The translations under genes and the position numbers were made by a program. The notes beneath the pieces are model-generated. The model searched no databases. It saw nothing but the letters and a program-made list of their open reading frames with translations, and was not told where the DNA came from. Below are positions 12,298 to 51,729 of a stretch of DNA of 64,000 nucleotides, piece by piece (positions within the stretch are counted from its first letter, which is position 1; every line of letters starts with the position of its first letter). Source of the stretch: Candidatus Methanogaster sp. (GTDB lineage: Archaea > Halobacteriota > Methanosarcinia > Methanosarcinales > Methanogasteraceae); the NCBI GenBank assembly GCA_003194445.1, contig PQXF01000003.1, forward strand, positions 62,001 through 126,000, written 5' to 3'.

Positions 12298-12360
12298 CGT
12301 CCGATTCAACTATTCCACTGTGAATGACGGCTATCCACACCGGCAGATTTCATCAGTTAG

Positions 12361-12688
12361 CAGCAATTCCCGCTCTCTTTTAGCACCCACATCTAAAATG
12401 TCGTATGACTATACCACCTCTTGATATCGATTTATCGTGTAATACGAGGAAGTAGAAGTGTTTCATAACCTAAAATGTTCGCGAAAATACAAAAGAACAA
12501 TCCCGCCGTTAGCGATTTTCGTTGTGATTGTAAACGCATGCAAGAGAGGGTGGTCTTTCATCATTTTGCGCATATTTCGTAAACATTTCGTAAAACATTT
12601 TGTCCCATCACAAAACAAATCAACAGCAGGCGGTGATATAGCTACAAACAGTTGGGGGTCGAAAGTGTAGATGGAACGGGAATTACTG
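12361..12688 (+). mobile_element. 328-bp MITE-like element, copy 1, with 9-bp target duplication
   Basis: Non-autonomous element bounded by 12-bp terminal inverted repeats, CAGCAATTCCCG at the left and CGGGAATTACTG at the right (one mismatch). It is flanked by a perfect 9-bp direct duplication ATCAGTTAG at 12352-12360 and 12689-12697. A copy of identical length lies in reverse orientation at 19651-19978, and a shorter derivative at 20271-20450. It carries no transposase, so it must have been moved in trans by an enzyme not in the window. The 70-codon open frame inside is probably chance. Confidence 0.9.
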
Positions 12689-12693
12689 ATCAG

Positions 12694-12764
12694 TTAGCAA
12701 GAAAGGAAGGATATGGGCTCCAATGGTAGATTATGTCGCTGAAGACCGGCAGGAAATATTCGCG
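12694..12764 (+). pseudogene. Relic of a second methyltransferase/nuclease-like gene junction
   Basis: About 70 bases align without gaps for most of their length to the junction at 8125-8182, where the DUF1156 gene ends and the 194-aa gene begins. Shared stretches include TTAGC-AGAAAG-AAGGAT, GGGCTC, ATG and TCGC-GAAGAC-GGCAG. The ATG is kept but the frame breaks soon after. This is a remnant of a duplicated or older operon copy; the MITE inserted right at its left edge. Confidence 0.7.
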
Positions 12765-19562: not shown

Positions 19563-19650
19563 GTTATTGATCCTCTGTTTTCTGTAATATTTAGCTACCC
19601 TCATTCACCACATTTAACCATTTCTGTTGCACCAGTACTTCCGAAACTAC

Positions 19651-19978
19651 CAGTAATTCCTGTTCCATCTACACTTTTGACCCTCAACTATTTGTGTCTA
19701 TATAACCGCTTGCTATTGATTTATTTTGTAATTGGACAAAGTGTGTTATGAAATGTTTACGAAATATGTGCAAAATGATGAAAGACCGCCCTCTCTTGCA
19801 TGCGTTTACAATCACAACGAAAATCGCTAACGGTGGGACTGTTTCTTTGTGATTTCGCGAACATTTTAGGTTATAAAACACTTCTATTTCATCGCATTAC
19901 ACGACAAATCGATATCGAGAGGCGGTGTAGTCCTACGGAATTCTGGATGAGGATGTTAAAAGAGAGCGGGAATTGCTG
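19651..19978 (-). mobile_element. 328-bp MITE-like element, copy 2, inverted, with 9-bp target duplication
   Basis: Same length and about 85 percent similar by eye to 12361-12688, in opposite orientation. Ends are CAGTAATTCCTG (left) and CGGGAATTGCTG (right). A perfect 9-bp duplication CGAAACTAC flanks it at 19642-19650 and 19979-19987. It lies about 90 bp upstream of the lipoprotein start and could have displaced that gene's promoter. Confidence 0.9.
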
Positions 19979-19987
19979 CGAAACTAC

Positions 19988-20270
19988 CGAGTTCCGAACA
20001 CAATTCCCAGCCACGCCACCATCCAGCCACGATCACCTCGCGAAAGTCCAGCGAAACCATCTCGAATCCACTCAATAGCGCAACGACACACCACCCGTCG
20101 GCAAAATAATCGAATTCTACCAAAATTCCATCGCGTTTCTCAGAAAAATCCTACCCACAACAGAAAGCTCCCGCTAACCACGAGCGCGGGTCAACACAAC
20201 CGTTCGGCCAATCGGACCAGCCGCAGATACTATACCAGACCCAGACACCGCCGCAATTCTAATTCTCTAC
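19988..20270. other. Intergenic sequence between two MITE copies
   Basis: About 280 bases rich in short A/C words with no credible gene on either strand and no repeat matches elsewhere in the window. Confidence 0.4.
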
Positions 20271-20450
20271 CAGCAATTCCCGTTATTGCTGTAAACGCAT
20301 ACAAGCGAAGGCTTGTTTCTTTGACGTTTCGTAAATATTTTATGATATTGCGTGCTTCTACTCGCCACATCACAAGGTAAATCAACGACGAGCGGCATTA
20401 TAATTTCAGACAGCTTGGATGAAAACAAAATAAGAGAGCGGGAATTGCTG
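20271..20450 (+). mobile_element. 180-bp deletion derivative of the MITE-like element
   Basis: Begins CAGCAATTCCCG and ends CGGGAATTGCTG, the perfect form of the terminal repeats. The interior matches the second half of the 328-bp element (CTGTAAACGCAT, TTTCGTAAA, CATCACAA, AAATCAAC-G) with the first third missing. No 9-bp flanking duplication was found, so it may have formed by recombination or be old. It ends 3 bp from the stop of the glycosyltransferase gene. Confidence 0.8.
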
Positions 20451-38065: not shown

Positions 38066-38261
38066 TGTGGTGGTCGCGGCGGAGTGTTCATCACGTCAGA
38101 CCGTGAAGTTTATAGCCTCCGGAGTCAAGGATTTCCTTGAACTGGTGATGCCAACCCCGATCGAAGTATAATTCCCGCTGGAAATTGTTGTGCCTGCTGG
38201 AATCGTTGGTGTTTGTCTACCACAAAGTCTGAAGGACTATAATGGAAACGGGAGGACGCTT

Positions 38262-41198
38262 ATGAAACAGGACGCGGTCGTACGGATCATCGAGGAAGCG
38301 GCAGGAAGCAACCAGTCAACATTGGACTTATCCGGTAATCAACTGACAGCACTTCCGCCTGAGATTACGAAGCTTACGAATCTTACCGAGCTTAACCTAT
38401 CCTATAATCAACTGACAGCACTTCCGCCTGAGATTACGAAGCTTACGAATCTTACCGGGCTTTACCTATCCTATAATCAACTGACAGCACTTCCGCCTGA
38501 GATTACGAAGCTTACGAATCTTACCGGGCTTGACCTATCCGGTAATCAACTGACAGCAGTTCCGCCTGAGATTACGAAGCTTACGAATCTTACCGGGCTT
38601 TACCTATCCGGTAATCAACTGACAGCAGTTCCGCCTGAGATTACGAAGCTTACGAATCTTACCGGGCTTTACCTATCCTATAATCAACTGACAGCACTTC
38701 CGCCTGAGATTGTGAAGCTTACGAATCTTACCAAGCTTAACCTATCCTATAATCAACTGACAGCACTTCCGCCTGAGATTACGAAGCTTACGAATCTTAC
38801 CGGGCTTTACCTATCCGGTAATCAACTGACAGCACTTCCGCCTGAGATTACGAAGCTTACGAATCTTACCGGGCTTGACCTATCCTTTAATCAACTGACA
38901 GCACTTCCGCCTGAGATTGTGAAGCTTACGAATCTTACCGAGCTTTACCTATCCGGTAATCAACTGACAGCACTTCCGCCTGAGATTACGAAGCTTACGA
39001 ATCTTACCAAGCTTTACCTATCCGGTAATCAACTGACAGCACTTCCGCCTGAGATTGTGAAGCTTACGAATCTTACCGAGCTTTACCTATCCGAAAATCA
39101 ACTGACAGCACTTCCGCCTGAGATTACGAAGCTTACGAATCTTACCGAGCTTTACCTATCCGAAAATCAACTGACAGCACTTCCGCCTGAGATTACGAAG
39201 CTTACGAATCTTACCCGGCTTCATTTATCTGGAAATCCCCTCGAATCACCGCCACCAGAAATCGTCGAACAGGGGGTTGAGGCGATCTTTGAGTATCTGC
39301 GCAAGATTCCGGAGGAAGCAACTGAGCAGAATGAGGCAAAACTGATACTGGTCGGTCAGGGAGAAGTGGGAAAGACCTGTCTTGCCAATCGATTGATTTA
39401 CAACAAGTTCACAGAAGATGAAAAAACCACGGAAGGGATTGATATTCTGAGATGGGGGATTACTGCGCCCACTCCGGAAGAGGAGGAGATTAGACTCAAT
39501 GTCTGGGACTTTGGTGGGCAGGAGATATATCACGCCACACATCAGTTCTTCCTAACCAAGCGTTCGGTCTATCTGCTGGTCTGGAATGCCCGCAAGGCAC
39601 GCGATTATGAACACATCTACTACTGGCTGCATACGATTGAGGCTTTCGGAGAGGACAGCCCGATCATCCTGGTGATGAGCAAATTAAATGAGCGGGACGA
39701 TGATCTGAATATGAAAGACCTCAAGGAGGCGTTCCCGCAGATCGTCGGATTGTACAAGGTAGATAGCAAAGACGGGAAGAGAGTTCCCGCATTAAAGGAG
39801 ATCATCAGCCGGACTGCGTGGGATCTGCCGCACATGCGGACCCCGTGGATCGAGTCATGGTTCAACGTGCGAGAACGATTAGAAGAGGACGGACGAAACT
39901 GGATCGAGAACAACGAATTTCGTCAGATATGCACGTCAAAGGGGTTGAACGGAAAAGAAACTGATATCTTGGACGAATATCTGCATGATCTGGGTGTCAT
40001 TATTCATTTTCGGGATAGACTTGAACTGGCAAATATGGTGATTCTAAAACCGGACTGGGCGACCGGTGCGTTCTACAGGGTTCTGGACACGCAGTCGGTC
40101 AAGGATCGAGGCGGCATCTTACTGCACAATGAACTGGAAGAGAGCTGGGATCTCGGCATCTACCCGGCAGATATTCATCCCAGATTGCTGGAACTGATGA
40201 ACAAGTTTGAACTGGCGTATGAACTGCCTGATGAACGGAGTCATCTGGTTGCCGAACTTCTGCCTGCAACCGAACCTGAGTTTGAGTGGGATGATACGGA
40301 TAACCTCCGTTTCTATTACCGCTACGATTTTCTGCCCGCGGGCGTTATGACTCGATTCATTGTGCGTGTCCATCAGGATCTGGAATGTGAGTCGGATGGT
40401 ACACATCTCTGCTGGCGGGAAGGCGCGGTGCTGTCGCGGGAGGGTACGCATGCTCTTGTCAGAGTCAAGCCACTGGAAAGACTGATCGAGATCAAGATCG
40501 ATGGCAATAAAAAACGGGAATTGCTGGCGATCATCCGTCGCGAGTTTGACCATATCAACAGTTCAATCAAGAAGGTGAATATCACGGAAGAAATCCCGTG
40601 CAATTGTTCGGAAGGTTGCCCTCACAAATTCAACTATGAAGAATTATTGATAGCTGAAAATGTTGGAAGAGATGCTGTCGACTGTCCAAAGAGCTGGGCT
40701 AAAGTGCCGCTTTCGTTGTTGTTAGACGGTTACGAAAGGAAGGAAAATAGAATGAAAGAGATAGATGAGATTTCGAAAGAGAAAGGCATTACCATCAATG
40801 TAATCCAAAACCAAGACGTGACCCAAAAAAATATACAAAAACAAGAAGTTAAAATCAATATCAATGTTGAAATTGACTTACCTGCGATTCAATCCGATTT
40901 CGAGGAGTTGAAAGATATATTGCTCAAAGCAGATCCAAATCTCGAAAGAAAATTAAACGAAATTGGCGATAGTCTGGACGAAGTCAATGCCAATACTGAA
41001 GAAGAGAAATTGAATAAACCGTTCAATAAAATGCGTCGATTTTTAGAAAAAGTATATGATGAAAATTCAGACTATCACAAAATAATTTCTGGAACCAAAG
41101 AAGGGATTAGATTGGTTCAAAAAGTTGGGAAAACCTATAACGGATTTGCACGATGGCTGGCATTGCCACAAGTTCCAGAATTGTTTTTGGGAAAGTAA
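38262..41198 (+). CDS. Leucine-rich-repeat Roc-COR GTPase
   Basis: 978 aa from ATG 38262 with GGAGGACG as ribosome site; the earlier in-frame codon at 38190 has none. Residues about 20-325 are 13 near-identical 23-residue LRRs (NQLTALPPEITKLTNLT-type) plus one degenerate repeat. The Roc GTPase has P-loop GQGEVGKT at 365-372, switch II WDFGGQE near 415 and a SKLN guanine-specificity motif near 471. The COR dimerisation domain follows to about 750. The last 140 residues are a coiled coil and an amphipathic tail. Roco proteins are signalling GTPases; several bacterial and archaeal ones sit in defence islands as sensors. A truncated homologue of its tail is at 47283-47460. Confidence 0.9.
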   Translation: MKQDAVVRIIEEAAGSNQSTLDLSGNQLTALPPEITKLTNLTELNLSYNQLTALPPEITKLTNLTGLYLSYNQLTALPPEITKLTNLTGLDLSGNQLTAVPPEITKLTNLTGLYLSGNQLTAVPPEITKLTNLTGLYLSYNQLTALPPEIVKLTNLTKLNLSYNQLTALPPEITKLTNLTGLYLSGNQLTALPPEITKLTNLTGLDLSFNQLTALPPEIVKLTNLTELYLSGNQLTALPPEITKLTNLTKLYLSGNQLTALPPEIVKLTNLTELYLSENQLTALPPEITKLTNLTELYLSENQLTALPPEITKLTNLTRLHLSGNPLESPPPEIVEQGVEAIFEYLRKIPEEATEQNEAKLILVGQGEVGKTCLANRLIYNKFTEDEKTTEGIDILRWGITAPTPEEEEIRLNVWDFGGQEIYHATHQFFLTKRSVYLLVWNARKARDYEHIYYWLHTIEAFGEDSPIILVMSKLNERDDDLNMKDLKEAFPQIVGLYKVDSKDGKRVPALKEIISRTAWDLPHMRTPWIESWFNVRERLEEDGRNWIENNEFRQICTSKGLNGKETDILDEYLHDLGVIIHFRDRLELANMVILKPDWATGAFYRVLDTQSVKDRGGILLHNELEESWDLGIYPADIHPRLLELMNKFELAYELPDERSHLVAELLPATEPEFEWDDTDNLRFYYRYDFLPAGVMTRFIVRVHQDLECESDGTHLCWREGAVLSREGTHALVRVKPLERLIEIKIDGNKKRELLAIIRREFDHINSSIKKVNITEEIPCNCSEGCPHKFNYEELLIAENVGRDAVDCPKSWAKVPLSLLLDGYERKENRMKEIDEISKEKGITINVIQNQDVTQKNIQKQEVKININVEIDLPAIQSDFEELKDILLKADPNLERKLNEIGDSLDEVNANTEEEKLNKPFNKMRRFLEKVYDENSDYHKIISGTKEGIRLVQKVGKTYNGFARWLALPQVPELFLGK
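38331..39237 (+). repeat. Tandem 69-bp repeats encoding LRRs
   Basis: Thirteen copies of a 69-base unit, first AATCAACTGACAGC at 38337 and last at 39165. Most copies differ at fewer than five bases, many of them silent-poor swaps (ACG to GTG giving T/V, GGT to TAT giving G/Y). The uniformity shows recent expansion or gene conversion. A coding repeat, not a CRISPR array. Confidence 0.95.
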
Positions 41199-41883
41199 AA
41201 GACGCATTTAAGGATTGTGGGGCTCTGACAGAAACAGCGCATCGACGGCTGTAATCGATGATGCAATGGTTACTTCTCGCATTTGGGATTATTAGGGTCC
41301 GCGGCACCACCTGCATGAATCTATCCGAGGATCTATTATCAGGCAGTCTCACCAGTTCTCCGAGCCCGCTGTCACACAGGAGGCGGTGCGAGGCGGAACA
41401 GTTCCGCTGCCAGCAGGGTTCACTGCCGAAGAGGTGATAACAAACATCACTACCGGTTACTGATCGGCTACCTCTTCGGCAGGCACGTCCTGAAGACATG
41501 CCCGGTGCTGCTCATGGGCGCAGGTCACTGACGCGATTGCAAGCGGTGCGGCACCCGGGTGTCGGTAAGGAGGAAGCCAGATGCCAACGCTCGGGTTACA
41601 CAGGCGCTTATGCATCTGCCAATGCGCTGCTGACGATGGCTGGTAGTGCGATTCTGCTTCTATAGGGGGATGGGGTGGTTTTTATTGGTCATGTTGATTG
41701 CGGTAGGGGGCGTGGGGGTCGGTTAGTTTTGTATATCATGGCGGCACTGGTTGTAATCATATAATGCGATGCGATCTATATGGCAGGCTTATGGTATTGC
41801 TATTGAGGTGCAGCGGTGGGATGCGCGGCATGAAATCGCTATGTACGGGCTCTGGACTTATAGTTGCGGGGTTTGGGTGACTT
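41199..41883 (+). repeat. Direct repeat R1, copy a
   Basis: Non-coding stretch, about 95 percent identical by eye to 47461-48142. It follows the LRR-Roc stop and ends at a GTGACTT motif (41877-41883), after which the two copies diverge into different genes. It contains protein-like but broken frames (for example a segment reading AYASANALLTMAGSAILLL near 41625), probably relics. No intact gene. Confidence 0.85.
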
Positions 41884-41910
41884 AACAAATAAAGGTATTT
41901 TAAGGGAAGA

Positions 41911-42534
41911 ATGACAATGATTGGAACTAATACTGTTACTATTCTGTTTGCAGATATCAAAGATTATAGCAAGCTATATTTAAGACAAAAGCTTGAACTC
42001 CGTGAAGTTGTAGAAACTGAACTTCTTGCCGCCATTGTTGACGAGGTGGGAAGGGACAGTATTAAACATTACAACTCATGGGGTGATGCCTATCTGATAT
42101 TATTTAGTAATGTCAATGCGGGGGTGAAAGCGGCACTTATACTTAGGGATCAATTTCGGTCAAGAACGAACTGGAGAGAACTTGGCCTGCCACCGACTCT
42201 AAATATTCGGTGTTCACTTCACGTAGGTGATGTAGTTATTAAAGATTTTGAAAATCCAATTTTTGGAAATAAAAAACAGGATGTTGTTGGAGAGAATATA
42301 GACCTCACAGCAAGAATCGAACCTATAACTCCCCCTGGTCGTGTGTGGGCTACAAAACAGGTTATCGCATTACTCCCAGACAATACTCCAGATGGTGTGC
42401 ATGTTGATCCAATTGGTAAGCTAGAATTAGCTAAGGGGTTGCCAGAAAATAACCTATCAAAATACGTGGCATTCACACATTCACACATTCGTGATAAAAC
42501 CGGGACAAAAACAGCATCAGTAGATCACGAATAA
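41911..42534 (+). CDS. Class III nucleotidyl cyclase domain protein
   Basis: 207 aa, essentially a lone catalytic domain. Metal-binding Asp residues are D15 (FADIKDYS) and D59 (SWGDAYLILF). The transition-state pair is N129 and R135 (ENIDLTARIE). Where adenylate cyclases carry a substrate-specifying Lys four residues before the second Asp, this protein has Asn55, so the substrate may not be ATP. No membrane or sensor domain. Paired, 9 bases apart, with a guanylate-kinase-like gene. Stand-alone class III cyclases in such islands include Pycsar enzymes, which make cCMP or cUMP upon phage infection. That this is one is inference. Confidence 0.85.
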   Translation: MTMIGTNTVTILFADIKDYSKLYLRQKLELREVVETELLAAIVDEVGRDSIKHYNSWGDAYLILFSNVNAGVKAALILRDQFRSRTNWRELGLPPTLNIRCSLHVGDVVIKDFENPIFGNKKQDVVGENIDLTARIEPITPPGRVWATKQVIALLPDNTPDGVHVDPIGKLELAKGLPENNLSKYVAFTHSHIRDKTGTKTASVDHE

Positions 42535-42543
42535 ACGAATCAC

Positions 42544-43371
42544 ATGAATGCCAGAGATGTGGATGGTCACCGAATAACTTTGTTACTTTATTTTTCGTCA
42601 AGCACTAAAGGATGGGATGTACGGAGTCTTTATGATGTGCGCCGGGTTGGAGACGAAAAAATCGACATATCAGACATCCCAGATATGGATAATAATGTCA
42701 TCATCGATAAGAGCGGTATCAATGTATTAAAGGATCCTCCGGGGATATTGATTATGTTATGTGGTCCAAGCGCGGTTGGCAAAGATGCTATTGCATCCCG
42801 TATGCGTGGACGCCTTGATCAACTTGGAATAGAGGCACAGTTTCCTCAAAAATATACAACCCGCCCTATACGAAAACAAGAAGATACACCAATTGACGGT
42901 AGATGGTTCGAACCTAGTTCGCAATATGAATTTCTGACAGATGACGAGCTTAATACACGAGACGATATTATTGGCAAATATAATAAGTTTGGTTATTCAT
43001 ATGGGTTTGATAAAAAATGGTTTAAAAATAAAAGTTTGATGAATAAATTTTTGATATGTATTTATGGAGATCTTTATTTATTGGCTGATTTTAAAAAAGA
43101 GATTGAGGAAAAGTATGCTCGAAAGGTTTTTGTTGTTTTTCTTCAAGCACCTGATAAAGATCTTCATACGAGACTCGATACGAGACCTGGCATGCCCGGT
43201 GACGTCATTGAGATTAGGAAAAAAGAGATGATACGAGACATTGCAAGGCTCGAGCGTATGCACTTTGGGGGTGACTATATAAGGATAGATAATTCAAATA
43301 CGGACAATCCAGACGAGGTGTCAGAAAAGTTATTGCGGAGAGTATTAGAGGAAATAGGATATTTAACTTGA
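42544..43371 (+). CDS. Guanylate-kinase-like P-loop protein
   Basis: 275 aa. After about 65 residues of unknown N-terminal sequence, the P-loop GPSAVGKDA is at residues 74-82. The GMP-binding-type TTRPIRKQE (R107) and a long lid region with YSYGFDKKW follow, then a VVFLQAP strand and a Leu/Ile-rich C-terminal helix. This is the guanylate kinase fold, but the domain is longer than true Gmk (about 200 aa) and has an extra N-terminal domain. Paired with the nucleotidyl cyclase, it could use, make or degrade the cyclic nucleotide or act as the effector. Base composition (AT-rich) differs from core genes. Confidence 0.7.
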   Translation: MNARDVDGHRITLLLYFSSSTKGWDVRSLYDVRRVGDEKIDISDIPDMDNNVIIDKSGINVLKDPPGILIMLCGPSAVGKDAIASRMRGRLDQLGIEAQFPQKYTTRPIRKQEDTPIDGRWFEPSSQYEFLTDDELNTRDDIIGKYNKFGYSYGFDKKWFKNKSLMNKFLICIYGDLYLLADFKKEIEEKYARKVFVVFLQAPDKDLHTRLDTRPGMPGDVIEIRKKEMIRDIARLERMHFGGDYIRIDNSNTDNPDEVSEKLLRRVLEEIGYLT

Positions 43372-43700
43372 TAAATAGAAACATGGAATCTTAAAAACAA
43401 AATAAATATTAAAGCCTCGAGCATGGGTGACTTCAGAGAGAGTGTCATGATGAACGCAGCGGTCGGCGCCGGGTCCCGCATGAACGAGGTGTTTTGTGAC
43501 CATGAGTCGAAAGACGTGGTGTAGATGAAGAGTGAATACAGAGGTGCGATGATTGAAGTTCGACCGGAATGATGCGATGCACGGACACCGGTTCGGACAT
43601 AACACCGGATAGGTAGGATATGTGAACTCGGGTTCGGATGTATAACGTATGGGCGATTGCGACATCAGTTTAATAAACATAAGCAGATATACAGTAAATA

Positions 43701-43975
43701 ATGGCAATTCAGTTCATTCTAACGGATTACGTAAGCCAGCTATTGGCAAATGCAGTCTACGACAAACTGGATGACGGCACTTATGCCGGACGAATTCCAC
43801 AATGTAGAGGAGGGGCAAGCATTCGGAGCAACCCTCGCGTGAATGCGAGGATGAGATCCACTCCACCCTCGAGGATTGGATTCTGGTTGGTCTCAAGCTG
43901 GGACATCCTTTACCCGTGATTGCTGAAATTAATCTGAATAAGGATCTGGCTTATGAGCCCGTGGAAGCCCTGTAA
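43701..43975 (+). pseudogene. HicB-like antitoxin relic
   Basis: Begins MAIQFILTDYVSQLLANAVYD with the DGTYAGRIPQC strand of archaeal HicB proteins in frame one. It then continues in another frame as AFGATLA and in a third as ECEDEIHSTLEDWILVGL, ending with NKDLAYEPVEAL. Two frameshifts break it. The same breaks are present in the copy at 50473-50747. Confidence 0.75.
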
Positions 43976-44185
43976 ACGCCGAGACTTTATCCGGCGGATG
44001 CGTAAGTTGGGTTTTGATTGCACCCTATTCCGGTACACGCCATCAATTTATGATCCATGGGCAGAATCGTATGGCGATCCCTTCTAATGCTAAAATATTC
44101 CGTGCCTCAGCTTCGGATGATGATTCGTGAGGTTGAAGGGATCCTGAATAGGGGTATTACGGTGAATGAGTGGAATAAATTATGA
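43953..44185 (+). pseudogene. HicA-like mRNA interferase relic
   Basis: Starts ATG 43953 overlapping the HicB relic. Frame one gives RRDFIRRMRKLGFD, the HicA/YcfA N-terminus. Then a shifted frame has YSGTRHQFMIHGQNRMAIPS with the expected catalytic His, and a third frame PQLRMMIREVEGILNRG. Two frameshifts inactivate it. Toxin and antitoxin are decayed together. Confidence 0.75.
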
Positions 44186-44340
44186 TCTACGCTTCCTATG
44201 TTGGATCAGGGATTGTTATCCTGTGTGTCGTTGGCGTCCCGTACTCTAAAACCCGTAAGCCTGCTTCTAAAAATGCGCTGCAACCGCAATCCTTATCATC
44301 TGATAGACTGATGGCAGAATCGTGCATGTTGCCCGTATGA
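44182..44340 (+). CDS. Possible small membrane peptide, 52 aa
   Basis: Starts in an ATGA-type overlap with the end of the HicA relic, with a hydrophobic segment (SGIVILCVVGVP) then a basic, Ser-rich tail. An identical frame is at 50954-51112 within the other R2 copy. It may be a remnant; coding status is uncertain. Confidence 0.3.
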   Translation: MIYASYVGSGIVILCVVGVPYSKTRKPASKNALQPQSLSSDRLMAESCMLPV

Positions 44341-44461
44341 TGTGCCCCCCCATCTGAGATAACAGATGCATTTCAAGGCTAAGATGGGTGATTGTTGAAT
44401 TGTTAGTGAGTTCATTGCCGGCACAGCAGGATGCGCGAAAATTAGTAGGAGGCAAAGAAAA

Positions 44462-44956
44462 ATGGTTAGTATCGAAGATATTCCGGCAGAGGTGAGATGG
44501 GAGATTGCAGCTAAAGCAGCGAGCGCAACACCATTGGCTTATGACATAGTCTTTCGGGAAGCTCTTGGCGATAAGTACGACGAGATCGAGCGTCCGATCT
44601 ATGTCGAAGCAGGAAAGGAGATGAAGAGCCTTACATCGGCTCTGGGTCTGCCAACGGATAATGCCATGGACCTTGGCAATGCTCAGAGCGTTCTTACGAC
44701 GGTCCTCTACGGACCCGAGTTTGAGTTTGGGAATGTCGAGGGTACCGGAGATAGGGCAGTAGGTAAGGCGACCGGGTGTTCCGTGTTGAATCGGGCATTG
44801 GAGATAGGACTGGATCCGAAAATCTGTCTCGAAGCGTGTCAGACATTCTGTAAATCGACTATCGAGAACTTAAACCCGAAGTACACCCAGAGGTTTACCA
44901 AGAATATGTGCGCCGGCGACCTTTACTGCGAGATGTTGATCGAGCTTAGGGGATAG
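44462..44956 (+). CDS. 164-aa protein, L-2-amino-thiazoline-4-carboxylate hydrolase-like (tentative), copy a
   Basis: Has an AGGAGG ribosome site 9 bases upstream of the ATG. Soluble, mixed alpha/beta, with a C-terminal half rich in Cys (GCSVLNRALE, CLEACQTFCKSTI, MCAGDLYCEMLIELRG). The ending G-D-x-x-C resembles the ATC hydrolase-like family (PF14196), whose archaeal members have unknown function. Stands 14 bases before the isochorismatase-family gene, an operon. A copy differing at about 10 of 164 residues is at 51235-51729. Confidence 0.7.
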   Translation: MVSIEDIPAEVRWEIAAKAASATPLAYDIVFREALGDKYDEIERPIYVEAGKEMKSLTSALGLPTDNAMDLGNAQSVLTTVLYGPEFEFGNVEGTGDRAVGKATGCSVLNRALEIGLDPKICLEACQTFCKSTIENLNPKYTQRFTKNMCAGDLYCEMLIELRG

Positions 44957-44970
44957 CTGGAGGTATAAAG

Positions 44971-45594
44971 ATGTCAGAGGTAAAGATAGACCCTGAGCAA
45001 GCTGCGTTGTTGCTAATAGATATGCAGAACGATATTCTTCACGAGAAAGGGAAGCTTGCCGCATCGGGAGTTGGAGTCTGGAAGTTTGCAAAGGAAGTAG
45101 GGATCATCCGTAACACCAGAAAGATGATCGAGATCGCAAGGAAGAATAGCATACCTGTAATCTATGTGAAGATCGTTTTCAGACCGGATTATGCAGATAT
45201 GGGATTGGTTCAATTTTCGCCCTGCACGCTGTGTAGGATGATAAAGGAAGGCAAGGTCTTTAAGGAGGGTACGTGGGGCGCTGAGTATGTCGATGAGCTA
45301 AAACCAGAGGCAGGTGATTATGTCGTTGTCAAAAGAAGGATGAACGCGTTCTATAATACAGATCTGGAAACGTTGTTGAGGGGTCTATGGAGATCGACGC
45401 TTCTAATTTGTGGAGCTATTACAAATTTCTGTGTGGAGGCAACGGTTAGAGGTGCAGTGGATAGGGATTTCGATGCCATCGTGCTGGAGGATTGTACAGC
45501 GAGTGAAAGCAAAGAGATGCAAGAATTTCCGATGAAGGCGATCTTCCCGATGTTAGGAATCGTGACAACAACAGAAGAGTTGGTCGTAGAATAG
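44971..45594 (+). CDS. Isochorismatase-family cysteine hydrolase
   Basis: 207 aa. The catalytic triad of the family is visible: D in LLIDMQND (residue 17), K in VVVKRRMNAF near residue 116, and the nucleophile C in ITNFCVEATVRGA near 152. Members hydrolyse nicotinamide, isochorismate, ureido or other amide/vinyl-ether substrates; the specific one is unknown. GGAG ribosome site in CTGGAGGTA. Located in R2 copy a; the counterpart in R2 copy b is a truncated relic. Confidence 0.85.
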   Translation: MSEVKIDPEQAALLLIDMQNDILHEKGKLAASGVGVWKFAKEVGIIRNTRKMIEIARKNSIPVIYVKIVFRPDYADMGLVQFSPCTLCRMIKEGKVFKEGTWGAEYVDELKPEAGDYVVVKRRMNAFYNTDLETLLRGLWRSTLLICGAITNFCVEATVRGAVDRDFDAIVLEDCTASESKEMQEFPMKAIFPMLGIVTTTEELVVE

Positions 45595-45733
45595 ATTTGG
45601 TGTGTTGGAGTTCCTCCCGGGAAAACCACAGCTTAAAAAAATCCGAGGTGCACAGGGATTTGTCCTTCAAAAAAGGTACTGTGGTAAGTGCATCAAAAAT
45701 AAACAGGAGGAAACTACCAATGAAAAATTATTG
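45595..45733 (+). other. Gene start interrupted by the IS66 element
   Basis: Ends with an AGGAGG ribosome site, 8 bases, then ATGAAAAATTATTG, directly followed by the IS66 terminal repeat. An incoming gene probably began here and lost all but its first four codons when the element or a recombination removed the rest. Confidence 0.45.
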
Positions 45734-47282
45734 GTAACTACTCACCTACACAGCCGGACGGGATAAACGAAATCCCCTCTAAGCGCATCCGACAGTCGCA
45801 TCGAGCATAGGACACCCGTTCTTTCGCACGGTAGATATATACCCAGCAGAATACCACAGAACACATCTGCCCCTATAGCAGTCCGAAATGTGCCTAATAT
45901 CTTCTGCCTCAGTTTCATCATGCGTACGTCCCGTTCAGCCTGGTTATTGTCAAACGGCTTAATCATTGTCGTACATAAATGCTAGCACTTCCTATTTATA
46001 CCCTTTTAACCTATCAAGCAGATTTTTGGGTGGAGATTGTTTAACCCTACCCCTCTTTCCTGGTTCTTTTTGAGGTGGTGGGTTTAATTCCAGTCCCTCC
46101 TCAATGATCTTATCAAATCGATCTTCAAACTCCTTGATTGTATCAGGATCGAGCTCATCTTTGTACGGTCTGGCTTGATCCACCTCTTTCTTGATATCAA
46201 GCAAACATTGGCTCATTTCTTCTGCCCAGTCCTGTTCATACTGAACGTGTTCAAATGTAAGGTCTCTTAAGTGGTGGGCGTTGCAAAGGGCATGTGTTAC
46301 GTCAGTGTAATTGAAATATGGCGCCCAGTGATCATGCATAGCAACTCCATCGAATTCTGCTAAAATTCCCATCACGTCCATCGCATCCTTTCCGCGCTTC
46401 GGATGCACAATATGATACGTCAACTCGTGAGTGTTGGCAACATGGAGCCAGTTTTAGCTTACCCTCCCTTCGCAAACCAGTTTCATCGAAATTAACTACG
46501 TGGGAGTTTATCAACAGCTCTTTAATCACCTCATTAGCTGGTTTAACGTTCTCTGCACATCTTGCATTCGCCTGGAGAATAAATGCCTCCGTTGGGCGGT
46601 GATCAAAGATATCCTCAAAAAAGTCCCCGACACGTTCCAACGGGACAAACTGGTAGTTGGTCTGGTAGACTGCCATCGCTCTGACCCGATTGCCATATTG
46701 CACCGATGCAGTGACGTCTGGTGGAAATAAAGCCATGTTGCGTGCGCCCGCAATGAGGGCACGTCTTGATCTCTGCTTGATGTTCTGTAACCTCGATTTT
46801 TACGGGAGGAATGTCAAAAGACCTGCCGCTTCTGATAGTCATCCGCTTCGACATCTTCGAGAGTTGCGCCACACACTGTGCACCGATCTGCGACGTGCAC
46901 TTCTATGTGATCCGGTTCTTCCACAGGTTCCAGTGTGCGACCAACATGCCCCTCCTGTCCACCGTTCTTCTTCTTGCCCCGCAATCTCAGAGCTTTTGGT
47001 ACGGGGCGTCTTTTTGAGTCCATCACTGGATGGGGGCTTGCTGCTGTTTTTGCTGTTCTTGTTCAGCTGATCTTGCATGGTCTGTAATTCCCAGATGAGG
47101 TAATCGAATAGTTGGATGATAGCCTCTTCCCCTTGCTGGTAAGCGGCATGAATCTCATCGTGAGTAGGTATGCACATTGTGTCCTCCATCCATCAAACGA
47201 AATGTTTTATTCACAACCATTGCGATGGTACATATAATTTCATTAATAATAAATTTTGCGGTGGTGGGGGGTGAGTAGTTAC
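45734..47282 (-). mobile_element. Degenerate IS66-family insertion sequence
   Basis: 1549 bp bounded by matching inverted ends GTAACTACTCACC (45734-45746) and GGTGAGTAGTTAC (47270-47282). No clear 8-bp duplication flanks it (AATTATTG against AAATAAAT), in line with age or later recombination. Its single transposase gene is broken into several frames. The right boundary is exactly where the R1 copy b homology begins. Confidence 0.85.
45742..47189 (-). pseudogene. IS66-type DDE transposase, multiply frameshifted
   Basis: Read from 47189 downward. The N-terminal leader and NSKNSSKPPSSD motif are followed in other frames by GQEGHVGRTLEPVEEPD, a CPHCGRTQ zinc-ribbon part, VNFDETGLR (first catalytic Asp), HDHWAPYFNY (second Asp region) and DNNQAERDVRMMKLRQKI (third, Glu). 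At least five frame changes are needed, so it cannot make an active enzyme. Confidence 0.88.
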
Positions 47283-47460
47283 AAATAAATTAGGTAGATT
47301 TTTAAAGAAATTAGATGATGAAAATTCGGACTATTGCAGGTTAATTTCCAAATCCAAAAAAGGAATTGAATCAGCTCAAAAACTTGGTAAAGCTTATAAC
47401 AAATTTACTCAATGGATTCCTGCATTGCCTGTTGTACCGGATTTGTTTTTAGGAGACTAA
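47283..47460 (+). pseudogene. C-terminal fragment of a second LRR-Roc GTPase
   Basis: The last 55 codons read FLKKLDDENSDYC to VVPDLFLGD, similar (about 60 percent) to the end of the LRR-Roc protein at 38262-41198. Everything upstream is replaced by the IS66 element. This shows that another complete LRR-Roc gene once preceded the second R1 repeat. Confidence 0.8.
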
Positions 47461-48142
47461 AAGGCGCATTTAAGGATTGTGAGGCTCTGACCGAAACAAC
47501 GCGCTGGATGATGTAATCGATGATGCAATGGTTACTTCTCGCATTTGGAATTATTAGGGTCCGCGGCACCACCTGCATGAATCTATCCGAGGGTCTATTA
47601 TCAGGCAGTCTCACCAGTTCTCCGAGCCCGCTGCCACACAGGAGGCGGTGCGAGGCGGAACAGTTCCGCTGCCAGCAGGGTTCACTGCTGAAGAGGTGAT
47701 AAAGAACACCACTGCCGGCTGCTGATCGGCTACCTCTTCGGCAGGCACGTCCTGAAGACATGCCCGGTGCTGCTCATGGGCACAGGTCACTGACGCGATT
47801 GCAAGCGGTGCGGCACCCGGGTGTCGGTAAGGAGGAAGCCAGATGCCAACGCTCGGGTTACACAGGCGCTTATGCATCTGACAATGCGCTGCTGACGATG
47901 GCTGGTAGTGCGATTCTGCTTCTGTAGGGGGATGGGGTGGTTTTTATTGGTCATGTTGATTGCGGTAGGGGGCGTGGGGGTCGGTTAGTTTTATATATTA
48001 TGGCAGCACGGGTTATAATTATATAATATGATGCGATATATATGGCGGGCTTATGGTATTGCTGCTTAAATGCAGCGGTGGGATGCGCGGCATGAAATCG
48101 CTAGGTACATGCCCTGTACTTATGTGCGGGGTTTAGTGACTT
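47461..48142 (+). repeat. Direct repeat R1, copy b
   Basis: About 95 percent identical by eye to 41199-41883 and, like it, directly follows the LRR-Roc C-terminus. It ends at GTGACTT (48136-48142), after which a HEPN module follows in place of the cyclase. Non-coding. The stretch 48143-48445 shows no gene I can support. Confidence 0.85.
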
Positions 48143-48445
48143 CGGGAGACTGGCACGATGTCAATGATATGGGGGTCGGGGGTGAATCGGGTGGTTGAAA
48201 AGGTCTGATTCTGATGGATTCTGTGGTTTTCGAAAGATACCGAAAGAAAGCGGCGCATACACGGTTCTGAAGAGGTACATCTCATGAGAACTGGCTGCGA
48301 AACCACGCGATTTCCGCATATGCGAGGTCTACTGCTAGCGACCACAGAAAACAGCAGAACCAGGAAAAGGTTTTGTGGGGTGCAATGGGACGACAATCTT
48401 AAATATGCAATTGATACATATATTCTAATCATAAAGGAGACGAAC

Positions 48446-49066
48446 ATGGAAGCGAAACTTAGACGAGCGGATATTGTGATATTGGCTTCGGCTCACAATC
48501 CTAGCATAATGGCCCCACAATGGCTCAAGGATAAATCCTTGATAGTTGAAGAACCCACACAGTTTGTACACACTCCCGATTTCTCTCTGTTTGAATCGGA
48601 GTCTTTTTTATTGGTAGTTGATAATCAGCGGATGCAAATCACAGTTAAAAAGCAAGATAATCGGTCAGTAGAATCTTTAGCAAATATCGCTAGTAACTAT
48701 CTAAAATTATTACCTCACATTCCATACAAGGCACTTGGTTTAAACTTTGTATGGAGTATTGAGGTTGATGATGGGAAGGAACTTCCAAAAATTGAGCTTA
48801 ATATAAATAAAAGCGATTTAATGTCAGTTTTTGAGGGTCGCGAAATTGAATGTGGAGGTATCATCTACGCGAGGAAAGAACCATATATGCTTAAAGTTGT
48901 TATCGAACTTCGGGGGGAAGACGTCATTGTTCACAATTTCAATTACAATTATGAGCTTGAAGGTATGTCTGTGGAAGATATAGTAAAATTGGTAAATAAT
49001 TTTTTAACCATGAAAGAAGATTCATCGAGTATTGTTAAAGGTCTTTACTCGATAGGAGAAAAGTAG
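48446..49066 (+). CDS. Unknown protein of a three-gene HEPN module
   Basis: 206 aa from ATG 48446 with AAAGGAGACG upstream; the long N-terminal extension in the same frame has no ribosome site. Not recognised. Starts with a strand IVILASAHNPSIM, then FVHTPDFSLFESESFLLVVD and a C-terminal helix. No membrane segments, no nucleotide-binding motif. Its stop abuts the next ATG. Probably a partner or sensor for the HEPN protein. Confidence 0.65.
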   Translation: MEAKLRRADIVILASAHNPSIMAPQWLKDKSLIVEEPTQFVHTPDFSLFESESFLLVVDNQRMQITVKKQDNRSVESLANIASNYLKLLPHIPYKALGLNFVWSIEVDDGKELPKIELNINKSDLMSVFEGREIECGGIIYARKEPYMLKVVIELRGEDVIVHNFNYNYELEGMSVEDIVKLVNNFLTMKEDSSSIVKGLYSIGEK

Positions 49067-49708
49067 ATGGTCGATCCACACCACACAAGTACCGAAGGGA
49101 TAGAAATGGGAACGATGTGGGGGGAAAGAGAAGCGTTAATGAGCGTTGGCTTTATGAGACCTCCAAACACTTTTTCGGAACTTCAACCTACCACCACAGC
49201 GCCAAATATCTATTCAGCGTATCGTCTTCTTTTTAACACTGTTTCCCAAAGGCTTGCAAGGGGGGAAGAATTGGGGTATGAGCAGTATTATAGTGTTGAT
49301 CGTGCGAGTAAAAGCTTGCATTCGCTGATAGACTCGATTGCCGGCACGTCCCGGGATGAAACTTTATCAACTTATCCTACTTCGGATTTACGAAAGTTAG
49401 AACAGCATTATATCTTCCGAAATCAATCTGAAGTTATGAATTTTGCTGTGAACAATTCTTCCCTTTTACAGCCCCTCCATGAAGCTTATGACCAGATTAG
49501 AAATTATTTTGGAGAGTCTGTACAGGCAGTTCTTGAGGTCGTTACCGACCCCGAGTTTGTAGAAGATCAGGAATTAGTGATTTATATTCGCACAGACATT
49601 TCGCCAGATGAAGCATTGAAAAAACTTGAACAGATTGATAATGCATGGTGGTTGGACGTTCCTGCTGATGCGCGGAAAAAGCTATGTATTAACGTGGAAT
49701 TTATATGA
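49067..49708 (+). CDS. Unknown protein of the HEPN module
   Basis: 213 aa. The N-terminal half is polar, and residues 150-213 form a conserved-looking domain (SVQAVLEVVTDPE, then ELVIYIRTDISPDEALKKLEQID). Similar proteins occur next to HEPN genes and I do not know their function. The gene starts immediately after the previous stop and its own stop overlaps the HEPN start by 4 bases. It is the best candidate for the antitoxin or regulator of the HEPN protein, by position only. Confidence 0.65.
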   Translation: MVDPHHTSTEGIEMGTMWGEREALMSVGFMRPPNTFSELQPTTTAPNIYSAYRLLFNTVSQRLARGEELGYEQYYSVDRASKSLHSLIDSIAGTSRDETLSTYPTSDLRKLEQHYIFRNQSEVMNFAVNNSSLLQPLHEAYDQIRNYFGESVQAVLEVVTDPEFVEDQELVIYIRTDISPDEALKKLEQIDNAWWLDVPADARKKLCINVEFI

Positions 49709-50094
49709 CTTTCGATTGGTCGGCGTATTTGAAACTTGCACAAGAACTTGCCGGAGATGACACAGGTTCGCCTGGTGAAGAGGCTAAGTTACGTTCTTCT
49801 GTTAGCAGGGCTTACTATGCAGCTTTCTGTAAAGCACGAAATCACTTACGTGATATCGATGGGCATCAAATACTTTCGGCGGATCCACCGAAAGTAAATG
49901 TTCATAAGTACGTTCGAGATGAATTCAAGAATAGCTCCGATATATCACGTAAAAAGATAGGAGATAATCTGAATCGACTAAGAATACACAGAAACAAAGC
50001 AGATTACAACGACGTTGTAACCGGGCTACCACAACTGACGACAGCGTCTTTAAAATGGACTCATGATGTTATCTCTGCACTAAACACCCTCTAA
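49705..50094 (+). CDS. HEPN-domain protein
   Basis: 129 aa all-helical. An N-terminal VSRAYYAAFCKARNHL segment and the C-terminal RLRIHRNKADYNDV motif (R-x3-H-R-N type, about residues 93-102) mark a HEPN RNase-like fold. HEPN proteins act as toxins or nuclease effectors in defence systems and toxin-antitoxin pairs. ATGA overlap with the preceding gene. Directly followed by the second R2 repeat. Confidence 0.8.
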   Translation: MTFDWSAYLKLAQELAGDDTGSPGEEAKLRSSVSRAYYAAFCKARNHLRDIDGHQILSADPPKVNVHKYVRDEFKNSSDISRKKIGDNLNRLRIHRNKADYNDVVTGLPQLTTASLKWTHDVISALNTL

Positions 50095-50472
50095 TTAAGA
50101 ATGTGTCAGCATGGCCCCACCCCACATCTATCCACGATCACACCAACACGCGACCCCCATCGGTCAAAGATGCCCCGTACTTCAGTACGGAGTATAGTGA
50201 CTTCGGAAAACTATCATGTTGGGCGCAGCCGGTCGGCGCCGGGTACTGCATGGACGCGGTGTTTTGTGACCATGGATCAAAAGACGTAATGTAGACGAAG
50301 AGTGAATACGGATGTGCGATGATTGAAGTTCACCCGGAAGGATGCAGATGGATGGGTCCCGGTTCGGACATAACGCCAGATAAGTAAGACATGCGAACTC
50401 GGGTTCGGATATAGAGCGCATGGGCGATTGCGACATCAGTTTAATAGACATAAGCAGAATATATAGTAAATA

Positions 50473-50747
50473 ATGGCAGTTCAGTTCATTCTCACGGATT
50501 ACGTAAGCCAGCTATTGGCACATGCAGTCTACGGCAAACCGGATGACTGCACTTATGCCGGGCGAATTCCACAATGTAGAGGAGGGGCAAGCATTCGGAG
50601 CAACCCTCGCGTGAATGCGAGGATGAGACCCACTCCACCCTCGAGGATTGGATTCTGGTTGGTCTCAAGCTGGGACATCCTTTACCCGTGATTGCTGAAA
50701 TTAATCTGAATAAGGATCTGGCTTATGAGCCCGTGGAAGCCCTGTAA
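50473..50747 (+). pseudogene. HicB-like antitoxin relic, second copy
   Basis: Copy of 43701-43975 with the same two frameshifts and only a few substitutions, so the gene was already broken when the segment was duplicated. Confidence 0.75.
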
Positions 50748-50957
50748 ACGCCGAGACTTTATCCGGCGGATGCGTAAGTTGGGTTTTGATTGCACCCTAT
50801 TCCGGTACACGCCATCAATTTATGATCCATGGGCAGAATCGTATGGCGATCCCTTCTAATGCTAAAATATTCCGTGCCTCAGCTTCGGATGATGATTCGT
50901 GAGGTTGAAGGGATCCTGAATAGGGGTATTACGGTGAATGAGTGGAATAAATTATGA
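50725..50957 (+). pseudogene. HicA-like interferase relic, second copy
   Basis: Copy of 43953-44185 and frameshifted in the same places. Starts at ATG 50725 inside the HicB relic, with the TRHQF catalytic-His region in a shifted frame. Confidence 0.75.
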
Positions 50958-51112
50958 TCTACGCTTCCTATGTTGGATCAGGGATTGTTATCCTGTGTGT
51001 CGTTGGCGTCCCGTACTCTAAAACCCGTAAGCCTGCTTCTAAAAATGCGCTGCAACCGCAATCCTTATCATCTGATAGACTGATGGCAGAATCGTGCATG
51101 TTGCCCGTATGA
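50954..51112 (+). CDS. Possible small membrane peptide, second copy
   Basis: Identical in frame and sequence to 44182-44340. Preservation across the duplication is expected because of its recency, so it does not prove coding. Confidence 0.3.
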   Translation: MIYASYVGSGIVILCVVGVPYSKTRKPASKNALQPQSLSSDRLMAESCMLPV

Positions 51113-51234
51113 TGTGCCCCCCCCATCTGAGATAACAGATGCATTTCAAGGCTAAGATGGGTGATTGTTGAATTGTTAGTGAGTTCATTGCCGGCACAGC
51201 AGGATGCGCGAAAATTAGTAGGAGGTAAAGAAAA

Positions 51235-51729
51235 ATGGTTAGTATCGAAGATATTCCGGCAGAGGTGAGATGGGAGATTGCAGCTAAAGCAGCGAGCGCA
51301 ACACCATTGGCTTATGACATGGTCTTTCGGGAAGCTCTTGGCGATAAGTACGACGAGATCGAGCGTCCGATCTATGTCGAAGCAGGAAAGGAGATGAAGA
51401 GCCTTGCAACGGCTCTGGGTCTGCCAACGGATAATGCCAGAGACCTTGACGATGCTCAGAACGTTCTTACGACGATCCTCTACGGACCCGAGTTTGAGTT
51501 TGGAAATGTCGAAGGTACCGGAGATAGGGCAGTAGGTAAGGCGACCGGGTGTGCCGTGTTGAATCGGGCATTGGAGATGGGACTGGATCCGAAAATCTGT
51601 CTCGAAGCGTGTCAGACATTCTGTAAATCGACTATCGAGAACTTAAACCCGAAGTACACCACAAGGTCTATCAGGAATATGTGCGCCGGCGACCCTTACT
51701 GCGAGATGGTGATCGAGCTTAGGGGATAA
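51235..51729 (+). CDS. 164-aa ATC-hydrolase-like protein (tentative), copy b
   Basis: Paralogue of 44462-44956, intact, with substitutions spread along the protein (for example IV to MV near residue 30, TS to AT near 53, QRFTKN to TRSIRN near the end) and all Cys kept. Both copies remaining open while the isochorismatase next to this one has decayed suggests this protein is the part under selection. AGGAGG ribosome site upstream, as in copy a. Confidence 0.7.
   Translation: MVSIEDIPAEVRWEIAAKAASATPLAYDMVFREALGDKYDEIERPIYVEAGKEMKSLATALGLPTDNARDLDDAQNVLTTILYGPEFEFGNVEGTGDRAVGKATGCAVLNRALEMGLDPKICLEACQTFCKSTIENLNPKYTTRSIRNMCAGDPYCEMVIELRG

Follow-up and report, generated by a model that had tools for sequence, protein, structure and literature searches.

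MITEs derived from an IS have been reviewed for prokaryotes (PMC10969869), and the miniature elements described here resemble them in being short and non-coding, in carrying terminal inverted repeats and target duplications, in occurring in several copies and in sharing their ends with an autonomous element. They differ in their host, a probable ANME-2c archaeon, and in that one size class is an apparent inverted dimer. This autonomous relative is a 1.7-kb IS bounded by CAGCAATTCCCG ends, and its transposase is of the DDE type (Pfam DDE_Tnp_1). It has this domain and a long target duplication in common with the IS4 family, whose subgroups generate duplications of 8–13 bp (PMC2266710); the subgroup ends, as far as they are listed there, differ from those of the parent. 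The best score of the curated IS4-family model was 22.5 bits, with the cut-off at 152, the NCBIfam models for IS4, IS701, IS1380 and IS1634 scored far under their cut-offs, and no NCBIfam model was above its cut-off for the parent transposase.

ISNCY is a holding category for elements “not classified yet”. Its PF01609-type DDE transposases are homologous to that of the parent: the one annotated record, Gloeothece WP_013335080.1 (“ISNCY family transposase”), matched a parent-type copy (L031) by tblastn at 32% identity (E 1e-53). Identical CAGCAATTCTCATTTT ends were found in Gloeothece and Calothrix, and the Calothrix element has a 9-bp duplication, as in the archaeal group, whereas the archaeal ends are CAGCAATTCCCG. 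Since ISNCY is only a holding category, no formal family name follows from it.

The 328-bp elements and their insertion sites

The window, i.e. the whole 64,000-nucleotide stretch that was analysed, comprises positions 62001-126000 of contig C103 in a 3.6 Mb genome of 169 contigs (G000), whose host we take to belong to the order Methanosarcinales. The sequence-only reading had described two 328-bp elements of equal length and opposite orientation, each enclosed by a perfect 9-bp duplication, and both the elements and the duplications were confirmed (Table 1). The 12-bp inverted ends it had reported are carried by both copies, but just one tip of each is the exact CAGCAATTCCCG; the opposite tip has one or two changes and reads CAGTAATTCCTG in copy 2. 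Both elements are real; a third with the same ends, 180 bp in length, had been overlooked. Copies 1 and 2 were paired by the inverted-repeat finder at 87% over 345 nt. They are intergenic and imperfectly palindromic, and contain no transposase gene; the short frames within them extend beyond the element.

Table 1 Features of the miniature elements and their targets in the window.
Feature	Position	Strand	Remarks
MITE copy 1	12361..12688	+	328 bp, without conserved coding sequence
MITE copy 2	19651..19978	-	328 bp, 88% identity to copy 1
Copy 1 target duplication, left, ATCAGTTAG	12352..12360	.	One copy at orthologous empty site in G005 (L056)
Copy 1 target duplication, right, ATCAGTTAG	12689..12697	.	
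Copy 2 target duplication CGAAACTAC	19642..19650	.	One copy in uninterrupted repeats L065-L068
Copy 2 target duplication CGAAACTAC, other side	19979..19987	.	
Copy 1 left terminal repeat CAGCAATTCCCG	12361..12372	+	First 15 bp (CAGCAATTCCCGCTC) identical to parent IS right end
Copy 1 right terminal repeat CAGTAATTCCCG	12677..12688	-	One mismatch
Third miniature element, 180-bp class	20271..20450	+	Both ends exact CAGCAATTCCCG, without target duplication
Unrelated IS end (CAGTACTTCCGAAACTACCGAG...), target of copy 2	19633..20268	.	Also in C114, C100, C140
328-bp left half	12361..12510	-	Homologous to reversed 180-bp MITE (element positions about 21-150); score 98, shuffles mean 61, maximum 83
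328-bp right half	12511..12688	+	Homologous to forward 180-bp MITE; score 135, shuffles mean 70, maximum 89

Uninterrupted counterparts were identified for both insertion sites. In G005, which belongs to the same genus, the stretch upstream of RNase Z is ...CGGCTTTCATCAGTTAGAAAGAAAG... and contains ATCAGTTAG once, where in the window the element is bordered by it on both sides; this single 9-mer lies close behind a tRNA-Thr gene, between it and the RNase Z region. At the corresponding place in the window no tRNA was found, only a remnant left of copy 1 (~12330-12351) that resembles the 3' end of the G005 tRNA-Thr and is probably tRNA-derived. The target of copy 2 is uninterrupted in four repeat copies, each reading CAGTACTTCCGAAACTACCGAGTTCC with a single CGAAACTAC, one of them with T for C near the end of that sequence. 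Such sites argue strongly for insertion accompanied by 9-bp duplication, and they support the transposition that had been proposed for each copy.

The unrelated IS that received copy 2 is represented in the window by ~300 bp of its end. Copy 2 lies 18 bp in from the tip of this fragment and the 180-bp MITE where the fragment is broken; the C114 and C140 copies continue into more shared, coding-looking sequence.

Two additional occurrences in the window were rejected as element ends. The 12-mer at 40515-40526 stands alone within a 1002-aa frame and was taken as chance, and a similar site at 799-810 has one mismatch and no partner. The same 1002-aa open frame (38190-41198) includes at least 14 tandem 69-bp units of 23 residues each (38188-39384). 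Further along, at 41160-51417, several stretches are repeated at 86–99% identity in two blocks ~6.3–6.8 kb apart, which suggests a segmental duplication.

Size classes and the parent IS

The 12-mer CAGCAATTCCCG occurs 26 times in the genome compared with no occurrence of the reversed control, and is therefore not due to chance. Pairing of the tips resolved three size classes with common 12-bp ends (328, 180 and 426/427 bp). The further copies that had been expected elsewhere in the genome were found, with six complete 328-bp copies at 88–100% identity and one more cut short by an N run; the 180-bp class is present in the window and in C88, and the 426/427-bp class in C53, C71, C125 and C163. 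Beyond this genome, further 328-bp copies were identified in G006, and cut or incomplete ones in G011 and G013.

Of the 12 complete miniatures that the genome holds across all three classes, seven are flanked by perfect 9-bp duplications, and the flanks of one further element agree at 7/9 positions. The C88 180-bp copy has the perfect duplication TAGAGCATT. Perfect duplications were likewise observed in relatives, for a 328-bp copy of G006 (TTGGAATAT) and for 427-bp copies of G005 (CTCGCAATA) and G011 (ACCGCGAAG). Rearrangement between copies was rejected as the source of the missing duplications, no 9-mers being swapped among the G000 copies.

A parent IS with the same ends had been predicted in the genome, and it was located there in decayed form and as ends truncated by contig edges; other Methanosarcinales carry it with an open frame. 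One relic (L010, in C125) is a tip pair 2.6 kb apart around a broken transposase gene and an inserted IS91-type element. The large ORF of L010 was rejected as the parent transposase; it encodes an IS91-type zinc-binding protein (PF14319) and belongs to this second element inside the relic. Another relic extends from C81:95762 onward. At the protein level, relics L010 and L016/L103 are 80–84% identical to the G012 copy, which is open. C132 and C159 terminate in the same 127 bp of parent right end; C144 and C145 stop in left ends of the parent that reach into the ORF (gene start). Among the assembled contigs of this genome, none holds the close parent at full length and with an open frame. The contig-edge ends fit an assembler collapsing a multi-copy element, so that the genome may contain intact copies that the assembly missed.

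Among the relatives, the parent is open over 432 aa up to a contig edge in G012 and measures 1703 bp with a 453-codon frame in G072; it is open or nearly open in G049, where a contig edge breaks it off, and in G180 (1692 bp, no duplication seen). Elements sharing the miniature ends comprise L031/L040, L030, L047 and L101 together with the relics in this genome, and DDE_Tnp_1 scored above its curated cut-off in the L031 and L030 transposases. The two direct parent-type copies of G072 (L031 585-2287 and L040 585-2287) share the 9-mer CTTTGTCCA crosswise and the other 9-mer pair agrees at 8/9, as would be expected after recombination or rearrangement between copies. L047 is a contig titled Paludibacter sp.; the Methanosarcina-like IS on it shares 91% identity with the G072 protein, and the contig is probably misbinned.

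Mobilization and origin of the miniatures

Both 328-bp elements are genuine MITEs, and the enzyme that moved them is very probably the DDE transposase encoded by a ~1.7-kb autonomous IS whose ends they share. The common ends, the 9-bp duplications, the empty target sites, the presence of several copies and the 426-bp intermediate class constitute the demonstrated part of this model. The parent transposase would act in trans on the miniatures, recognising the CAGCAATT(CCCG) tips and subterminal motifs, cutting out the element and inserting it at a target whose strands are cut with a 9-bp stagger, the repair of which would leave the 9-bp duplications. The 328-bp copies are 8–12% diverged, so that recent activity of the class is only a possibility.

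The 426-bp class matches the left 242 bp of the parent at 75%, including the first codons of the transposase gene, of which only the start is retained; judged from this match, it is an internal-deletion derivative of the parent. The 180-bp class shares with the parent 70 bp at the left end and the 15 bp of the right tip. Direct similarity of the 328-bp class to the assembled parent is limited to the terminal 15 bp and short subterminal motifs, and a different IS with such ends may have been its immediate parent. Its tips are of the right type on the outside. Where the two halves join, a decayed inner end (AGCGATTTTCG) marks the beginning of the right half, which bears the motifs TGTAAACGCATGCAAG and TTTCGTAAACATTT, shared with the parent left end. 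The simplest reading of this arrangement would make the 328-bp element an inverted dimer of 180-bp units and not a direct parent deletion. We give an even chance to the full sequence of events, in which the inner ends of the dimer were lost before it multiplied as a single element, such that monomer, dimer and internal-deletion miniatures of one IS coexist.

Alternatively, the 328-bp class could be a direct internal deletion of an unseen family IS, its halves resembling the 180-bp element through the long inverted ends of that IS. The ends of the 426-bp class are indeed inverted copies of each other over 72 bp, but the left half of the 328-bp element aligns with the 180-bp element over ~118 bp, through its middle, and we consider this origin possible but rather unlikely.

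Less probable still is that the 328-bp elements were moved by the type of L045, a distant cousin IS (~30% identity) in C11 with ends CAGCAATTCTCA. L045 (1643 bp, perfect 9-bp duplication CTCTGGTAT) is the only open family member assembled in this genome, and its first nine bases (CAGCAATTC) are shared with the MITEs. However, the MITE tips agree with the closer parent over 12–15 bp including CCCG, which L045 lacks, and the start of the closer parent's gene is held by the 426-bp class. The elements are short, non-coding, imperfectly palindromic and intergenic in the window, as a non-transposable REP/BIME-like repeat or structured RNA with coincidentally inverted ends would be, but this is highly improbable in view of the perfect 9-bp duplications and the pre-insertion sites, and a fold just weakly better than shuffles (z = -1.55) also led to the rejection of an RNA function.

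Wider family and host

A search for inverted tips with duplications, in which the end sequence was left unspecified, showed that CAGCAATT tips occur together with perfect 9-bp duplications in Saccharobesus (L077, TAAATAAAG), Calothrix (L079, GAAATATAC), L047 (TAGCATATA) and L045. The Gloeothece IS has CAGCAATT tips without a duplication, and no convincing ends were found for L075 and L076. Bacterial plasmids carry relatives, and the catalytic region is conserved, including an invariant IENE motif.

The miniatures are a new family of a well-known kind of element; the MITE sequence family is new as far as could be searched, with ISfinder outside the comparison. A literature search with the end sequence gave unrelated papers (primers etc.) among the matches listed, and none of the papers searched combined “ANME-2c” and “transposase”.

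McrA of the genome is nearly identical to the solved ANME-2c enzyme (9qm5), and this marker points to a methane-oxidising ANME-2c archaeon. A MITE set and its parent IS are documented here in uncultured methane-oxidising ANME-2c archaea. If the dimer reading is true, a natural series of MITE formation steps lies side by side in these archaea. The constant signature of CAGCAATT ends and 9-bp duplications is tied to an ISNCY-filed group spanning archaea, cyanobacteria and gammaproteobacteria; it aids annotation and accounts partly for assembly breaks at repeats.
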